From Leptotrichia sp. oral taxon 847 (GTDB taxonomy: Bacteria > Fusobacteriota > Fusobacteriia > Fusobacteriales > Leptotrichiaceae), in contig NZ_CP014231.1 of NCBI RefSeq assembly GCF_001553645.1, positions 868,001-932,000 on the forward strand: a stretch of DNA of 64,000 nucleotides. Direction: 5' to 3'. The translations under genes were made by a program, and so were the position numbers. The notes under the pieces were generated by a model. The model worked only from the letters and a program-made list of their open reading frames with translations, did not search any database and was not told where the DNA came from. Positions 48,472 to 56,136 of this stretch are shown piece by piece (the first letter of the stretch is position 1; every line of letters starts with the position of its first letter).

Positions 48472-49428
48472 TTACATTTTCCATTTAGAATCTATTGAAA
48501 TTATTGAAGTTGGCATTCCTACAATTTGAATATCAAATTTTAAACTTGTTTCCACTTTAGAAGAAGCATTATGTATTCTAAATGTAAATTGCCAACCATT
48601 ATTTAAATACAGTTCCAAAGTATTTAGACTACCTGGTTTAAAATCCAGACTAACTATTCTATTCGGTAAAAGAACAATCGGTATTTCTATTTTTCTTTTT
48701 TTATGTACCCCTTCTTGATTTAATGTACCATATAAGTTATAACTTTGCACTCTTGTAATTCTTTTAGTATCGATACTAATAACTTTATAAAAATCAAACT
48801 TTCCTAATAAGTATTTTAACATATTTTCTAATAATCCAATTTCTTCTTTATTTTGTTTTAAAATTTCTATTTTAAAAGCTTCCAACAATGGAAAATATAC
48901 ATTCTTATCTTTATTTAGTATTTCTTTCCAAAGAGTTTTCTTTCTTTTTTCTTCTTCTAAAAAATCAAAAATTGGTTTCACTTTTTTCCAGTATTCTTCT
49001 GAACAAGAAATATTGTACCATTTTTTTCCAAAATCTAATTTTTTAGATAATCTGCTGTGCTTTACAGCAAAATGATTATGTTTTAAACTTAACCCTATTT
49101 CCCAATTAATATTTTCTCTCATAATTATTATATCCCTTACATCCCCTTTTTTTCCGTTATCATCAGCTTGAATTTTTAGATTCAATGTATCATTATTTTT
49201 TTCAAGAATTAATGGTTCTAAATCTAAAACAGTATTTACTCCTGTTAAAGCACTTAACTTATATATTTCTTTTTCTTCTTCTGATAAAGTTTCCCAAGCT
49301 TTTTCAGAAGCTGAAAAACTACTATTCTTCTCAATCCAAACTTCCCTAATTTTAGATATTTCATCAAATAAAACATTTAAAAATATATATTCATATGCTC
49401 TTCCCTGATTATTGCTTTTACTACTCAT
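48472..49428 (-). CDS. HaeIII-family type II restriction endonuclease (predicted GGCC)
   Basis: A 318-residue nuclease whose start ([20 protein letters not shown]) and core ([11 protein letters not shown] and [22 protein letters not shown]) match the HaeIII restriction endonuclease family. Asp96, Asp99, Glu110 and Lys116 are candidate metal-site residues. It would cut unmethylated GGCC. It overlaps the 3' end of the methyltransferase gene by 8 bases, so translation is coupled and the methylase is read first. The specificity is inferred from homology of both partners. Confidence 0.9.
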
Positions 49429-50428
49429 TAATTTTACTTCTCTCTTTCTTTTCCAATGCTTCTCTTATCTTTTTAGCAATTTCATAAGCAAGATTAATAG
49501 GTACAGCATTTCCAATCATTTTATAACCATCATTTATATTATCATAATAAAATAAAAAATCATCTGGAAATCCTTGTATCCTAGCACACTCTCTAACTGT
49601 CAATCTTCTATACAAGTGTTCGTAGCCTTTAGCAAAAATATTTTTATCTTTCTCTATTTTAGGCATTACAGGTGCTTGTGGATGTAATTGACATTGTCTT
49701 CCGGAAGCTTGAACAGTAAAAGCTTGTTCATCCCATTGCCGCACCCTATTTCTACTCATAAAAATTGTAGAATATGATCCTAAATAATATTCATGATTAG
49801 GATAAATACATTTTTCCTTATTTGCTTTATTTTTTTCCAAGGCTTTTATTGGAGTTTCTTTTAAATCATATATTACATCCTTTAAAGTCAATTTAAAATC
49901 ATAAGGTTTCGGAAATTCAAAATTTACTTCTAATTCCTTTTTGAATCCAATATAAAAAACCCTTTTTCTATCCTGTGCCACCCCATAATCACTAGCATTT
50001 ACTTGAAATATTTGAACATTATATCCTATTTTTTCAAATTTTCCTATTATTTCCTTAACTGCTTTATTATGCCTTTTTGCCATCATTCCACTTACATTTT
50101 CTGCTAAAAAAAATAATGGCTTTTTATCTTTTAAAATTCGTATATATTCGTAAAACAGTTTTCCTCTAGGGTCATCAATTCCTCTTAATGAACCTCCTAC
50201 ACTCCAAGATTGACAAGGCGGTCCTCCTATAATTCCTTCTATATTGCTAGGAAATTCATCTAAAGAAACTTTTGCAATATCTTTTTTTATCAAATGTGCT
50301 TTATGATTTTTTTCGTATGTCTCCCATATTGTCTTATCGTACTCATTAGCTACTAAAATATCAAATCCTGCTTTTTCAAATCCTAAATCTAAACCTCCAG
50401 CTCCTGAAAAAAGGCTTATCAAATTCAT
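49421..50428 (-). CDS. HaeIII-type cytosine-5 DNA methyltransferase (predicted GGCC)
   Basis: A 335-residue C5 methyltransferase. Motif I is [12 protein letters not shown], motif IV is GGPPCQSWS with catalytic Cys72, motif VI is LAENVSG, motif VIII is [11 protein letters not shown], and motifs IX-X are [14 protein letters not shown] and [13 protein letters not shown]. The target region [14 protein letters not shown] with [17 protein letters not shown] closely matches M.HaeIII as I remember it, so GGCC methylation is predicted. It protects DNA from the nuclease encoded just downstream. The pair is flanked by housekeeping genes (leuS and an oxidoreductase), suggesting insertion. Confidence 0.95.
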
Positions 50429-50520: not shown

Positions 50521-53199
50521 CTACCCTTTCACAACAACATTAACCAATTTATTAGGTACAACAATCACTTTCACAATTTCTTTCCCGTCAATAAATTTCT
50601 TAGCCTTTTCTGATTCCAGCGCAAGTTTTTCAGCATCATCTTTTGAAATACCAATTTGAGCTGACACCATGTCTCTTACTTTTCCGTTTACTTGGATTAC
50701 CAAATTGAAAGTATGGTCTTTTGTCAATTCTTCGTCATATTTTGGCCATTCTTCTTCAAAAGTAAATGTTTTATTTCCTAAATAAGCCCACAATTCATCA
50801 GCTACATGCGGTGCAAACGGCGCAATTAACAAGATTGTTTTTTCCAATACTTCACGCCAGATTTTTTTACTTTCTGAAGAAATATTGTCTTTATCAATCA
50901 CTTCTTGCTTGTAAGTCGTCATATCATTCAATAATTCCATGACAGCTGCAATTGCGGTATTGAAGTGAAAATCATCTTCGATACTTTCTGTAACTTTTTT
51001 CACTGTTTGATGCAATTTCTTTTGAATTTCTTCATCTTTTTGATTTCTCTTTTTCAATTCAACTCCGTAATGATTTTCTGATTTCGCATTGTGGTCAGAA
51101 AATTCTGCAGTTCCAGAAACCAATAAATACAATCTATTTATAAATCTATATGCCCCTGCAAGCCCATTCATGTTCCATTCTAATTCTTTTTCAGGCGGTG
51201 CAGCAAATAATGTAAACACTCTTGAAGAGTCAGCTCCGTATTCTTTCACGATTTCTTCAGGATCTACTCCATTATTTTTCGATTTACTCATTTTTTCTAC
51301 TTTTGTAACTAATTCTTCCCCTGTTTTAATCGAAAACGCTTTCCCGTCTTTAAATTCAGCTTCTCTTGGGAACAAGTATCTTCTCTCATTTTGTGAATAG
51401 AATGAAGGCCCTAAAACCATTCCTTGCGTCAACAATTTTTTAAATGGCTCATTTGTGTCAACGTATCCCAAATCTCTAAGTGATTTGTGGAAAAATCTCG
51501 CATAAAGCAAATGCATTACTGCATGTTCAATTCCACCAATATATTGATTTACAGGTGTCCAAGCATCTGCGTCCGCTTTTTCAAATGGTTTTTCCGCATT
51601 GTGAGAATCCAAATATCTCAAATAGTACCAAGACGAATCAACGAAAGTATCCATCGTATCAGTTTCTCTTCTACCTTTTTTCCCATTCGGCAAAATCACA
51701 TTTTTAAACTCTTCCGAAGTTTCAAGCGGATTCCCTTTCCCATTAAATTCAATATCAGTAGGAAGTTTCACAGGCAAGTTTTCTTCTTCCTCCAAGTAAA
51801 TATTCCCATCTTCATCATAAATCACAGGAATCGGAGTTCCCCAATATCTTTGTCTACTAATCAACCAATCATGAAGTCTATAATTTACCGTTTTCTTACC
51901 AAGTCCAATTTTTTCCAATTTTTCAGTAATTTTCTCTTTTGCTTCATTACTATTTAATCCATTAAATTCTTCTGAGTTTACCAGTATTCCTGGAACTGTT
52001 AAAGCATTTTCCAATTTTTCAACAGAAACTTCTTCTAAATTTCCATTTTTATCAACAGGATTTACAACAATTTTCAAATCCAAGTTATATTTCTTAGCAA
52101 ACTGAAAATCTCTTTCATCGTGTGCAGGTACCGCCATTACAGCTCCTGTCCCGTAATCCATCAATACATAGTTTGCAACCCACAACTGCACTTTTTTACC
52201 ATTTACAGGATTAATCACATAAAGTCCAGAAAATACTCCTTCTTTTTCCTTATCTTCCGCTGTACGAGCGATTTTATCCTCATTTCTCATAGCTTCAACT
52301 TTTTCTCTAATGCTAGGATTTTCCTTTAAAATAACTTCTTCAACCAACGGATGTTCTGGTGCAACAGTTGCATAAGTAACTCCATAAAGCGTATCAGGTC
52401 TTGTTGTAAACACAGAAATTACAACTTCTCCCTTGTCATTCAATTTCAAATGTGAATTTCCATTATTTTCAAATTTATAATCTAAAATAAAGTCAACTTC
52501 AGACCCAGTCGATTTTCCAATCCAGTTTTTTTGCATAGTCAAAACTTGTTCAGTCCAGTGTCCTCTAAGTTCCTCATGTCCTGTAAGCAATTCTTCTGCA
52601 TATTCTGTAATTTTAAAATACCATTGCGACAATTCCTTTTGAATAACATCAGTTTTACTATGTCTCCAGCATTTCCCATCTTCGACTTGCTCATTTGCCA
52701 AAACCGTATTACAGTCAGGACACCAGTTTACAAAAGATTTTTTCTTGTAAACCAATCCTTTTTTATACATTTCAATAAAGAATTTTTGATTCCATTTGTA
52801 ATACTCTGGAGTATAGGTACTAAGTTCTCTATCCCAATCATAAGAAAGACCCATAAGTTTCAACTGTCTTCTCATATTGTCAATATTCGCTTTAGTCCAT
52901 TTCCCAGGATGAGCCCCATGGTCAATCGCCGCATTTTCCGCAGGTAATCCAAAACTATCCCATCCAAATGGATGCAGCACATTAAACCCTTTCATCTTCT
53001 TATATCTAGCAATCGCATCACCAATCGCATAATTTCTCAAATGCCCAACATGCAATTTTCCTGACGGATACGCAAACATCTCAAGCACATAATAATTCTC
53101 TTTACCATCGGCTTTATTTTCAGATTTAAATACATCTTTTTGGGCCCATTTGTCTTGCCATTTTTTCTCAATTTCATTAGGATTATATTCCTTAATCAT
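50521..53199 (-). CDS. leuS: Leucyl-tRNA synthetase
   Basis: An 892-residue class I synthetase. HIGH-type motif PSGKLHVGHLRNY, a CP1 editing domain with TTRPDTLYGVTY and GTGAVMAVPAHDERD, a zinc-like WCPDCNTVLANEQV segment, DTFVDSSWYYLRY, KMSKSKNNGVDP (KMSKS), and a C-terminal IQVNGKVRD domain. The length is as expected for bacterial LeuRS. It charges tRNA-Leu; a tRNA-Leu(UAA) gene is at 61431. It separates the HaeIII-type pair from the ATPase/nuclease pair. Confidence 0.98.
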   Translation of the reverse strand: MIKEYNPNEIEKKWQDKWAQKDVFKSENKADGKENYYVLEMFAYPSGKLHVGHLRNYAIGDAIARYKKMKGFNVLHPFGWDSFGLPAENAAIDHGAHPGKWTKANIDNMRRQLKLMGLSYDWDRELSTYTPEYYKWNQKFFIEMYKKGLVYKKKSFVNWCPDCNTVLANEQVEDGKCWRHSKTDVIQKELSQWYFKITEYAEELLTGHEELRGHWTEQVLTMQKNWIGKSTGSEVDFILDYKFENNGNSHLKLNDKGEVVISVFTTRPDTLYGVTYATVAPEHPLVEEVILKENPSIREKVEAMRNEDKIARTAEDKEKEGVFSGLYVINPVNGKKVQLWVANYVLMDYGTGAVMAVPAHDERDFQFAKKYNLDLKIVVNPVDKNGNLEEVSVEKLENALTVPGILVNSEEFNGLNSNEAKEKITEKLEKIGLGKKTVNYRLHDWLISRQRYWGTPIPVIYDEDGNIYLEEEENLPVKLPTDIEFNGKGNPLETSEEFKNVILPNGKKGRRETDTMDTFVDSSWYYLRYLDSHNAEKPFEKADADAWTPVNQYIGGIEHAVMHLLYARFFHKSLRDLGYVDTNEPFKKLLTQGMVLGPSFYSQNERRYLFPREAEFKDGKAFSIKTGEELVTKVEKMSKSKNNGVDPEEIVKEYGADSSRVFTLFAAPPEKELEWNMNGLAGAYRFINRLYLLVSGTAEFSDHNAKSENHYGVELKKRNQKDEEIQKKLHQTVKKVTESIEDDFHFNTAIAAVMELLNDMTTYKQEVIDKDNISSESKKIWREVLEKTILLIAPFAPHVADELWAYLGNKTFTFEEEWPKYDEELTKDHTFNLVIQVNGKVRDMVSAQIGISKDDAEKLALESEKAKKFIDGKEIVKVIVVPNKLVNVVVKG

Positions 53200-53310
53200 T
53201 ATTTTTTCTCCTTCATTTTTCAGTATTTATTTTACAACTTTGGTTTTTAGCTTAACTTATAATATCTATTATTTTATCATATTTAATGGATTTTTCAAAA
53301 AGTAATTTGA

Positions 53311-53976
53311 TTAAAAAAACTCTATTTCATCCAATGAACTCTCAAATGTATTTACTTTATTGCACATCTTTTCAAGAATTATACTTCCTTTTTGTGATTT
53401 CAAACCACAATAACGACAAAGATATTTAAAATTCTGATTATTATAAAAAATGTCCTCTTTATTCCTTACTTTTATTTCTTCAACACCTCCACTACTACTC
53501 TTTGATGCAATTAATACAGGAACGTTATAAATTTTTTTAGGAAAGTCAAAATCTAATATTCTTTTTTCCTTTTCTTTTTCATCTCTATAATTTAAATACA
53601 ACATTTCAAATATAAAGTGCAACAACTTTGCTGATGAATAATATTTTTTTACAAGTTTATTATCTATTGTTTTAGATTTTAATTCAATATGAAATAAAAA
53701 ATATTTATCATCTTTTAATCTTTTTACAAATAATACATTATCAACTGAACTAATTTCTTTTTTTAAAAATGGCAATAACCTTTTTAAATTTTCATCAACA
53801 TTATTTATGTCCAAAGTCAATTTCAAGACTTGATATTTGTCTGGATTAAACAAAACTTTTACTTTATGGAGTCCAGTATTTTTTGTTCTTGTATTCTTTT
53901 TTTCTTCTAAATATAATTCTTCTTTTATTATTTCTGAAAATGAATTATCAAAATTATTATTTATAAAATCAAACAT
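53311..53976 (-). CDS. Putative PD-(D/E)XK-type nuclease partner of the AAA ATPase, 221 aa
   Basis: I do not recognise a named family. A beta-rich core contains Asp79 (SSVDNVLFVKRL) and, 18 residues later, Glu98-Leu-Lys100 (FHIELKSK), followed by a helix with KKYYSSAKLLHFIFEML. D-x18-E-x-K on adjacent strands with a following helix is how PD-(D/E)XK nucleases look, so nuclease activity is a testable inference. The C-terminus holds a CRYC pair plus a further Cys, possibly an incomplete zinc site. The ATG directly follows the stop of the ATPase gene, so the two proteins are made together. This suggests an ATPase-effector defence pair. Confidence 0.7.
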   Translation of the reverse strand: MFDFINNNFDNSFSEIIKEELYLEEKKNTRTKNTGLHKVKVLFNPDKYQVLKLTLDINNVDENLKRLLPFLKKEISSVDNVLFVKRLKDDKYFLFHIELKSKTIDNKLVKKYYSSAKLLHFIFEMLYLNYRDEKEKEKRILDFDFPKKIYNVPVLIASKSSSGGVEEIKVRNKEDIFYNNQNFKYLCRYCGLKSQKGSIILEKMCNKVNTFESSLDEIEFF

Positions 53977-55371
53977 TTATTCTTCCTCCATTGCAAATAA
54001 TAATTCCTGATACAAATTATCTATTTCTCCTAAAACTTCATTAAATGTTTCCGTTATTACCCCATCTTCTCCAAATTCAGCCTGCTCTATCGTTTTATTA
54101 TTTAAAAAATAAATATTAACATCTTCCTGTCTTAATCCATAATTTTGTCTATCAATAGAATATTCTTTTATTATTTCATCATCAATTTTATCCTTACATT
54201 TTTCAAACATAATCATATTATTCATTTCCTGCGTAATTACTGGACTATGCGTACTAATAACAAATTTCAATCCTTGTTTTGATAAATAGTTTATAAGTTT
54301 CATTATTTTTCTCTGATTTTCAGGATGTAAATTCAATTCAATTTCATCAATAAAAATTATATCTCCCTTTTGTGCCTGATATTTTAAATATAAAAAGAAC
54401 CCCGCTAAAGTTTTTACAGTTGAAGAAACTAATCCCATATTTAATTCAACATCATTTTCATTTTTATAAATAATCTGGTTAGATTTTATTATTATTTCTC
54501 CTTCAATTATATTTTGAATATCAATATCTTTTACAAGATTTTTATAAATTTCTGTTTCTTCCCTGTTTTCATATTCTTCCAATTGATTTAATCGTATTAT
54601 ATACTCATTTACAGGTTCAGAATATCTTGAAACATCTTTTAATAAATTCATATCTTGTGATAGTTCCAAATTTCTTAAAATATTATTTCTATTTTCTAAC
54701 AATTGATTATAAAATAAAACAGCACCGCTTCTTTCTGCTGGAAAAAAATATATTTTAAAAAGATTATTGAATAAATATTTGCTAAAAAGATTCTCTAATC
54801 CATACCGTTTCAATTTTTCTTTCTTTAAATGTTTATTTACACTTATTACTGCATCTAATAATACTTCTAATGATGTTACTGACGTAATTGCATCTTCATA
54901 ATTTTTAAAATAATCTTTTATCTCAAAAGTAATTTTATGATTTTTTTTCTTAGTTACTATACTTTTATTTTCTGATATTACCAATATTCTACTTTCAGCG
55001 TCTTTTTCTTTAAATTTTTTCATTTCATCAGTTAAATCTATATTAACTATTTCAAAATTTCTAAAAAAATCATTATGTACATGAAATGTCGTAATTAATT
55101 CTTTTCTCAATTTTATTTTTATTTCTTCTTCATAATTTTTTTGAAACCAATCATAATCAATAATTTTTTTTTCATTTAATACAATGTTATTTAAAAATGT
55201 AAAACTTGTAATGTTAAATTTATCCATAAATTTAAAATAACTATAAATTAAGTAACTCAAATAAGTCTTCCCAGTATTATTCTTCCCAATTATCAAATTA
55301 ATTCCTTTTAAATCATTAAAATCTATTTCCCCATTGTTAATAGGACCTAAATTTTTAAATTTTATTATCAT
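53977..55371 (-). CDS. AAA/SMC-like ATPase of a two-gene (putative defence) operon
   Basis: A 464-residue ABC/SMC-type AAA ATPase (AAA_21/AAA_15, OLD-like). Walker A is IIGKNNTGKT (residues 29-36 in GKNNTGKT). A central helical insertion runs from about residue 80 to 290, with FFPAERSG. The late half has VSSTVKTLAGFFLYLK, Walker B FIDEIELNLHPENQ, and the H-loop STHSPVITQEM. There is no TOPRIM domain after the ATPase, unlike OLD or GajA. Such predicted ATPases paired with a small effector recur in anti-phage systems. The partner starts immediately after the stop. The location 2 kb from a restriction system supports the defence reading, which remains inference. Confidence 0.85.
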   Translation of the reverse strand: MIIKFKNLGPINNGEIDFNDLKGINLIIGKNNTGKTYLSYLIYSYFKFMDKFNITSFTFLNNIVLNEKKIIDYDWFQKNYEEEIKIKLRKELITTFHVHNDFFRNFEIVNIDLTDEMKKFKEKDAESRILVISENKSIVTKKKNHKITFEIKDYFKNYEDAITSVTSLEVLLDAVISVNKHLKKEKLKRYGLENLFSKYLFNNLFKIYFFPAERSGAVLFYNQLLENRNNILRNLELSQDMNLLKDVSRYSEPVNEYIIRLNQLEEYENREETEIYKNLVKDIDIQNIIEGEIIIKSNQIIYKNENDVELNMGLVSSTVKTLAGFFLYLKYQAQKGDIIFIDEIELNLHPENQRKIMKLINYLSKQGLKFVISTHSPVITQEMNNMIMFEKCKDKIDDEIIKEYSIDRQNYGLRQEDVNIYFLNNKTIEQAEFGEDGVITETFNEVLGEIDNLYQELLFAMEEE

Positions 55372-55443
55372 AAACTTTTCCTTTCCTAAATTTCATCCAA
55401 CTTACTTCTTCTTCCTTTTCAACAAATAATCTATTTCAACCTA

Positions 55444-56136
55444 CTAATACCCAAAATTCGGATTTTCAATCACCCATTTCTCATTCTTCTTATTAGCTTC
55501 CAAAATTTCTTTTCTTCCTACATATTTTCCATTTTTCGTCATTTTAGCCATTTCTTCATCCATAATTTCTATTTGAATTTCACCCATTATTTTAAAATAT
55601 TTTTTGATAGCTTTTTCATCATTTTGTGAAATTGATTTTTGATATTCTTCCATTGTCTTTCCTGTTTTTTTCTTAAATGCTTCGTTCATTTTTTTTAACA
55701 TTTCTTCAGATTTTTCAAACATTTTGTCTATGCTCATTTCATCTGTATTTACAGGAAATCCCAATTTAACTTTTACATATGCTTTCTCTCCATTGATATA
55801 GTCAATTTTTTCTATATCAATCTTGTAATATTTATACATCGTATCCATCATTTTAGAAAAATAATCCTCTCCAAAAAAAGAACCCATGATTTCCTTTATC
55901 TGATTTTCTCCATCTTTTTGACTTCCAGCAGAAACTCCTTTCATCATTTTATTCATTATTCCAAACATTTCCTCTTTTGAATAGATTCTACTCACTTCTT
56001 TTTCAATTTGAGAATTGTAATCTGAAAGAATACTTTGGTTAAATTTTACTGCTGGTTCTACTTCCACTTGATATTTTTCTTTTGCAAAAGTTCCTAAACT
56101 TAGTAATACAGATAATCCTAAAATTATTTTTTTCAT
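55444..56136 (-). CDS. Unknown secreted protein, 230 aa
   Basis: Signal peptide MKKIILGLSVLLSLGTFAK, then a 210-residue, mostly helical, charged domain rich in Met, Lys and Glu. No family is recognised; the general pattern is of a small periplasmic protein. It is followed by the ATPase-nuclease pair and preceded by a response regulator gene (47 bases upstream), so it may be in the same transcript as the regulator. The ribosome site is AAGAAGTAAGAATTATG. Confidence 0.7.
   Translation of the reverse strand: MKKIILGLSVLLSLGTFAKEKYQVEVEPAVKFNQSILSDYNSQIEKEVSRIYSKEEMFGIMNKMMKGVSAGSQKDGENQIKEIMGSFFGEDYFSKMMDTMYKYYKIDIEKIDYINGEKAYVKVKLGFPVNTDEMSIDKMFEKSEEMLKKMNEAFKKKTGKTMEEYQKSISQNDEKAIKKYFKIMGEIQIEIMDEEMAKMTKNGKYVGRKEILEANKKNEKWVIENPNFGY

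Follow-up and report, generated by a model that had tools for sequence, protein, structure and literature searches.

The PD-T4-4/WonAB class of two-gene systems has an anti-phage function shown in E. coli and Vibrio cholerae. PD-T4-4 was found by anti-phage selection (Vassallo et al. 2022, PMC9519451). WonAB consists of an OLD-type ABC ATPase and a partner with a PD-(D/E)xK variant, both of which are required, and its protection is abolished by mutants of the ATPase or by a mutant of the WonB lysine (PMC12137116). The system protects by abortive infection once the replication of phage DNA has started, and when WonB was overproduced with an active ATPase, translation stopped and genomic DNA stayed intact (PMC12137116). 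WonB was not toxic without WonA, and on this ground its authors rejected simple sequestration; they also related WonAB to PD-T4-4 and to the 'OLD-ABC ATPase + novel REase' operons (PMC12137116; Krishnan et al. 2020 cited there). Herein, we compare with this class a pair of genes, A and B, located in the window, which is the whole 64,000-nucleotide stretch of Leptotrichia sp. oral taxon 847 DNA that was analysed. The initial annotation had proposed the pair as a candidate new two-gene defence system.

Gene A lies at positions 53977-55371 on the reverse strand (ORF 55371-53977(-), the same coordinates as in the initial annotation). It encodes an OLD/ABC-type ATPase of 464 aa, which was assigned to the PD-T4-4_A family by PADLOC, Pfam and a set of motif residues (K35, R214, D342-E343 and H375) that are invariant in its relatives. 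K35 is inside the Walker A motif GKNNTGKT (residues 29-36), R214 belongs to FPAERSG, D342-E343 form the Walker B motif, FIDEIELNLHPENQ corresponds to residues 340-353, and H375 belongs to STHSPV (residues 373-378). The Pfam scan gave AAA_15 (2e-21) and AAA_21 (3e-19) above the cut-off and nothing else, and neither TOPRIM nor another effector domain was found in it, in line with the earlier view of an ATPase lacking its own effector. In PADLOC, which represents PD-T4-4 by the models PDLC04032-04037, the PD-T4-4_A model PDLC04033 matched gene A almost from end to end (E=3.2e-66, residues 1-462 of 464 on model positions 1-459 of 460). Lower scores were obtained for AriA (1e-45), PDC-M47A (1.6e-43) and a second PD-T4-4_A model (3e-40). 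The full-length match places the ATPase in a known class, and the proposal of a new system was therefore dropped. When solved structures were searched by sequence, only local matches to PtuA, the OLD nuclease and AriA were obtained, and those to PtuA and OLD clustered around Walker B and the H-loop. No match to gene A was found in the phage and plasmid collections at 1e-20.

Some of these matches bring up a toxin-antitoxin module, in which the ATPase would neutralise a toxic partner and the pair would be kept mainly for its own maintenance (cf. AbiEii and AriA/AriB of PARIS). AAA_21 is named 'putative AbiEii toxin', AriA models match gene A, and the two genes are closely coupled and move together, as described below. 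However, PD-T4-4_A, which covers gene A in full length, far outscores AriA, and WonB of the related WonAB is harmless without WonA (PMC12137116). We consider this explanation very unlikely, and gene A is presumed to be an infection sensor and regulator.

The two genes adjoin on the same strand. At the A/B junction GGAGGAAGAATAAATG (positions 53961-54000, reverse strand), the ATG of gene B begins at the base right after the TAA of gene A, confirming that the partner starts at the ATPase stop, and a strong ribosome-binding site for gene B sits in the last codons of gene A. Translational coupling of the two genes is likely from this arrangement.

Gene B lies at positions 53311-53976 on the reverse strand (ORF 53976-53311(-)) and encodes 221 aa, in which D79, E98, K100 and C187-RY-C190 were confirmed at these positions. 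Its PD-(D/E)XK-like core comprises E25, D79 and E98-L-K100-S101. No meaningful direct match for gene B was obtained in the Pfam, PADLOC, NCBIfam and PHROGs libraries, and a PD-T4-4_B model missed gene B when searched against its own genome. As the sole query, gene B retrieved nothing from phages, plasmids, viral contigs or genome contigs, and its relatives were reachable only via the ATPase. With the PD-T4-4_A profile searched against 98 genomes of Fusobacteriota, full-length ATPase relatives were found in three other genera of the phylum, each immediately followed by a small gene. These small genes matched PD-T4-4_B models (6e-23, 7e-12 and 2e-6), and D79, E98, K100 and S101 were invariant in the alignment of gene B with them. 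The intermediates tying gene B to PD-T4-4_B were L018 and L020.

When genome contigs were searched with the alignment of the ATPases, 80 loci from many phyla were obtained. In 66 of these, a closed ORF of 165-215 aa has its start near the stop codon of the ATPase; among the rest, several are truncated by contig ends. A profile was built from the 66 linked partners, leaving out gene B and its Fusobacteriota relatives. Among the 223 ORFs of the window, this profile retrieved gene B with 33.6 bits (E=5e-10), the next ORF having a value of 0.06, whereas the best of 2000 shuffled versions of gene B reached 10.7 bits. PD-T4-4_B models matched 59 of the 71 aligned partners and a PDC-M47B model matched 40. 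Since gene B itself has no direct PD-T4-4_B match, its family membership rests on intermediates; through these linked relatives, its sequence identifies it as a diverged member of the PD-T4-4_B/PDC-M47B family, and the earlier statement that the partner could not be matched to a named family has been superseded. K100 was conserved in all 71 linked partners, and D79, E/D98 and E25 in 69 each. The proposed D79/E98/K100 motif, kept in 69, 69 and 71 of the 71 partners, respectively, is thus judged from the alignment to go beyond chance. Position 111 is Gln in 61 of the 71 partners and Lys in gene B. The CRYC pair had been thought noteworthy, but as a zinc or active-site motif it was rejected and carries no weight, being kept only in one near-identical copy. 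Gene B is the presumed effector of the pair.

The structure of gene B was predicted from the 71-member alignment (pLDDT 76.5, pTM 0.78), and that of its relative L030 with AlphaFold (pLDDT 91.4, pTM 0.89). In the gene B model, D79 precedes the strand 80-86, E98 and K100 end the strand 91-100, and a long helix (106-137), which contains position 111, follows. The order of these elements is that of PD-(D/E)XK enzymes, and the L030 model has the same order. However, no significant Foldseek match was found for the gene B model against solved and viral structures (best 0.036) or for the L030 model (best 0.023), and the search of the partner profile against the sequences of solved structures gave nothing. 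The weak matches included McrC, HamA, DdmD, Shedu, BamHI, FokI, RecBCD and a hantavirus cap-snatching endonuclease as well as unrelated folds, and PD-(D/E)XK enzymes recurred among these non-significant matches. The nuclease assignment made earlier is supported by the residues and the secondary-structure order, but not by a significant structural match. Because even the better L030 model gave none, we infer the fold indirectly, and the residues together with the predicted order of elements make a PD-(D/E)XK fold likely for gene B.

A nuclease of this kind might cut phage or plasmid DNA directly, the pair acting as a restriction-like complex as in Septu and Gabija rather than on RNA or translation. 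The PD-(D/E)XK-like core is compatible with such an activity, the DNA enzymes McrC, HamA, DdmD, Shedu, BamHI and FokI are among the weak structural matches, and PtuA and OLD are among the solved relatives of the ATPase. On the other hand, RNA-cutting viral endonucleases also occur among the weak matches, and overproduced WonB stopped translation and spared genomic DNA (PMC12137116). Direct attack on DNA is possible, but we regard it as rather unlikely.

The location of the pair was analysed by comparing sister genomes. The leuS gene (positions 50521-53199 in the window) was found in all 13 genomes of the genus, and what lies immediately upstream of it varies. This variable slot (positions 53200-55443, no strand assigned) is bounded by leuS and by a 230-aa gene (positions 55444-56136). 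The pair is intact in 2 of the 13 genomes, the window genome and G005, and is directly upstream of leuS in both. In G011 (L153), a decayed pair with both genes broken is located beside leuS, and in G009 (L152) a gene B remnant of about 40 residues is found there. In G015, G012, G014 and G008 (L145-L148, respectively), a three-gene Shango-type cassette occupies the slot, flanked by the 230-aa gene and leuS; representative cassette genes match SngA (1e-13), SngB (4e-140) and SngC (7e-182). The slots of G013 and G016 (L143 and L144) contain a 321-aa gene, which had no match in PADLOC, and that of G010 spans about 490 bp and contains no large gene. Several details of these slots were also recorded. 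The SngB-like gene of G012 (L146) is split into two ORFs, and a 294-aa gene similar to the 321-aa gene adjoins the Shango cassette of G014 (L147). In the G010 slot (L111 bases 1012-1500), two very short ORFs, each preceded by a plausible ribosome-binding site, would encode basic, hydrophobic peptides that recall the small membrane peptides known from type I toxin-antitoxin loci.

In the two genomes with an intact pair, the DNA of the pair was 96-97% identical between species, with 4-8% of four-fold sites differing. The adjacent leuS, by comparison, was only 87-89% identical, and 30-36% of its four-fold sites differed. Given this difference in identity, the two genes were most likely transferred together between species. 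Within gene A (window 53977-55371 compared with L149 of G005), one central block of the ATPase was about 78% identical, and most of the remainder was 94-100% identical. The low-identity block points to a segment that has recombined or is changing fast, and which is perhaps the sensor.

Considering that the pair is directly upstream of leuS in both the window and G005 and that its relatives elsewhere are located among ordinary genes, a non-defence housekeeping pair for repair or regulation, tied to leuS, might be proposed. However, the pair is intact in so few genomes of the genus, the slot is occupied by Shango in four, the pair has been exchanged between species separately from leuS, and it has no recurrent neighbour in other phyla. 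We regard a housekeeping role as extremely unlikely.

The surroundings of the pair in the window include a HaeIII-type restriction-modification pair directly downstream of leuS (positions 48472-50428; nuclease 1e-131, C5 methylase 5e-101). The restriction-modification system reported earlier at 3 kb was thus found again, ending about 2.9 kb from the pair and beyond leuS; with leuS in between, it was not counted as a component of the system. The survey of other phyla covered 131 neighbours at 41 loci; most were ordinary genes, and no neighbour recurred. Only a handful were defence-like, matching type I methylase, type III nuclease, AbiD and mad2 models. The initial annotation had suggested a genomic survey of linkage and of location in defence islands; the ATPase and its partner were indeed linked in 66 of 80 loci, but the mostly ordinary neighbours mean that a defence-island argument is not general. 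The general defence-island context of the pair is weak, and it is the slot in the genus that counts. This slot exchanges whole defence modules, namely the pair and Shango, and is a place to seek further systems.

The PD-T4-4_A match, the slot shared with Shango and the mobility of the pair make a defence function very likely, as the initial annotation had held. Specifically, we conclude that the pair is with high probability an anti-phage abortive-infection module of the PD-T4-4/WonAB class, with an ATPase sensor and a nuclease partner. The computations show that the pair belongs to this family, that its genes are linked, that the core is conserved, that the two genes move together and that they occupy a slot used in sister genomes by a known defence system. 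That the window pair acts against phage and that gene B is a nuclease, as well as what it cuts and what triggers it, is inferred. In the proposed mechanism, gene A, which carries no effector domain itself, would be an ABC-type protein of the OLD family and probably dimeric. It would sense a phage-induced change, and the binding and hydrolysis of ATP would control gene B. Gene B would be a metal-dependent nuclease whose PD-(D/E)XK core (E25, D79, E98 and K100) has diverged strongly. Once activated, it would stop the infected cell before phage assembly, resulting in abortive infection. Judging by WonB, it more probably cuts an RNA used in translation than the chromosome.

The Fusobacteriota branch, comprising the pairs of the window, G005, L019 and L020, is marked by a longer C-terminal region, by Lys at position 111 and, in the window type, by CRYC. 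That this branch is a functionally distinct subtype with an RNA-cutting effector seems doubtful, although it is a conceivable reading. If true, an OLD-ABC ATPase sensor would be coupled in this subtype to translation arrest and not to DNA restriction. The PADLOC models used see only the ATPase in this branch, so that such systems would be scored as incomplete or missed.

Compared with known systems, gene A shares its ATPase superfamily with Septu PtuA, OLD/Gabija and PARIS AriA, but these match it more weakly than PD-T4-4_A does. The partners or fused effectors of Septu, OLD/Gabija and PARIS belong to other families (HNH, TOPRIM). None of HNH PtuB, UvrD-like GajB, TOPRIM (GajA) or TOPRIM AriB was found in either gene or adjoining them. 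The PADLOC candidate defence system PDC-M47, for which no paper naming the candidate was found in the literature searched, resembles the pair in that gene A matches PDC-M47A at 1.6e-43 and 40 of the 71 partners match PDC-M47B, but gene A scores below its PD-T4-4_A match. WonAB, judged by its published description, has the same combination of an effector-less ATPase and a small PD-(D/E)XK-variant partner, and the Walker A Lys, the Arg, the Walker B Glu and the His motifs of the two can be paired by their order; unlike the window pair in its chromosomal slot, WonAB is carried on a prophage. With PD-T4-4, the pair shares the two-gene build with the small partner directly downstream on the same strand, the full-length match of gene A at 3e-66, the D...(E/D)-x-K core and, via linked relatives, the gene B family. 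It differs from PD-T4-4 in that gene B is too diverged for the PD-T4-4_B models, is longer (221 aa versus 190-206 in the models), has Lys for Gln at position 111 and carries the lineage-specific CRYC. Thus, by sequence comparison, the pair is a strongly diverged member of the known PD-T4-4/WonAB class and no new kind of system. It extends this class to a Fusobacteriota branch, and its conserved residues name the mutants for testing the nuclease in a class that is still poorly understood.
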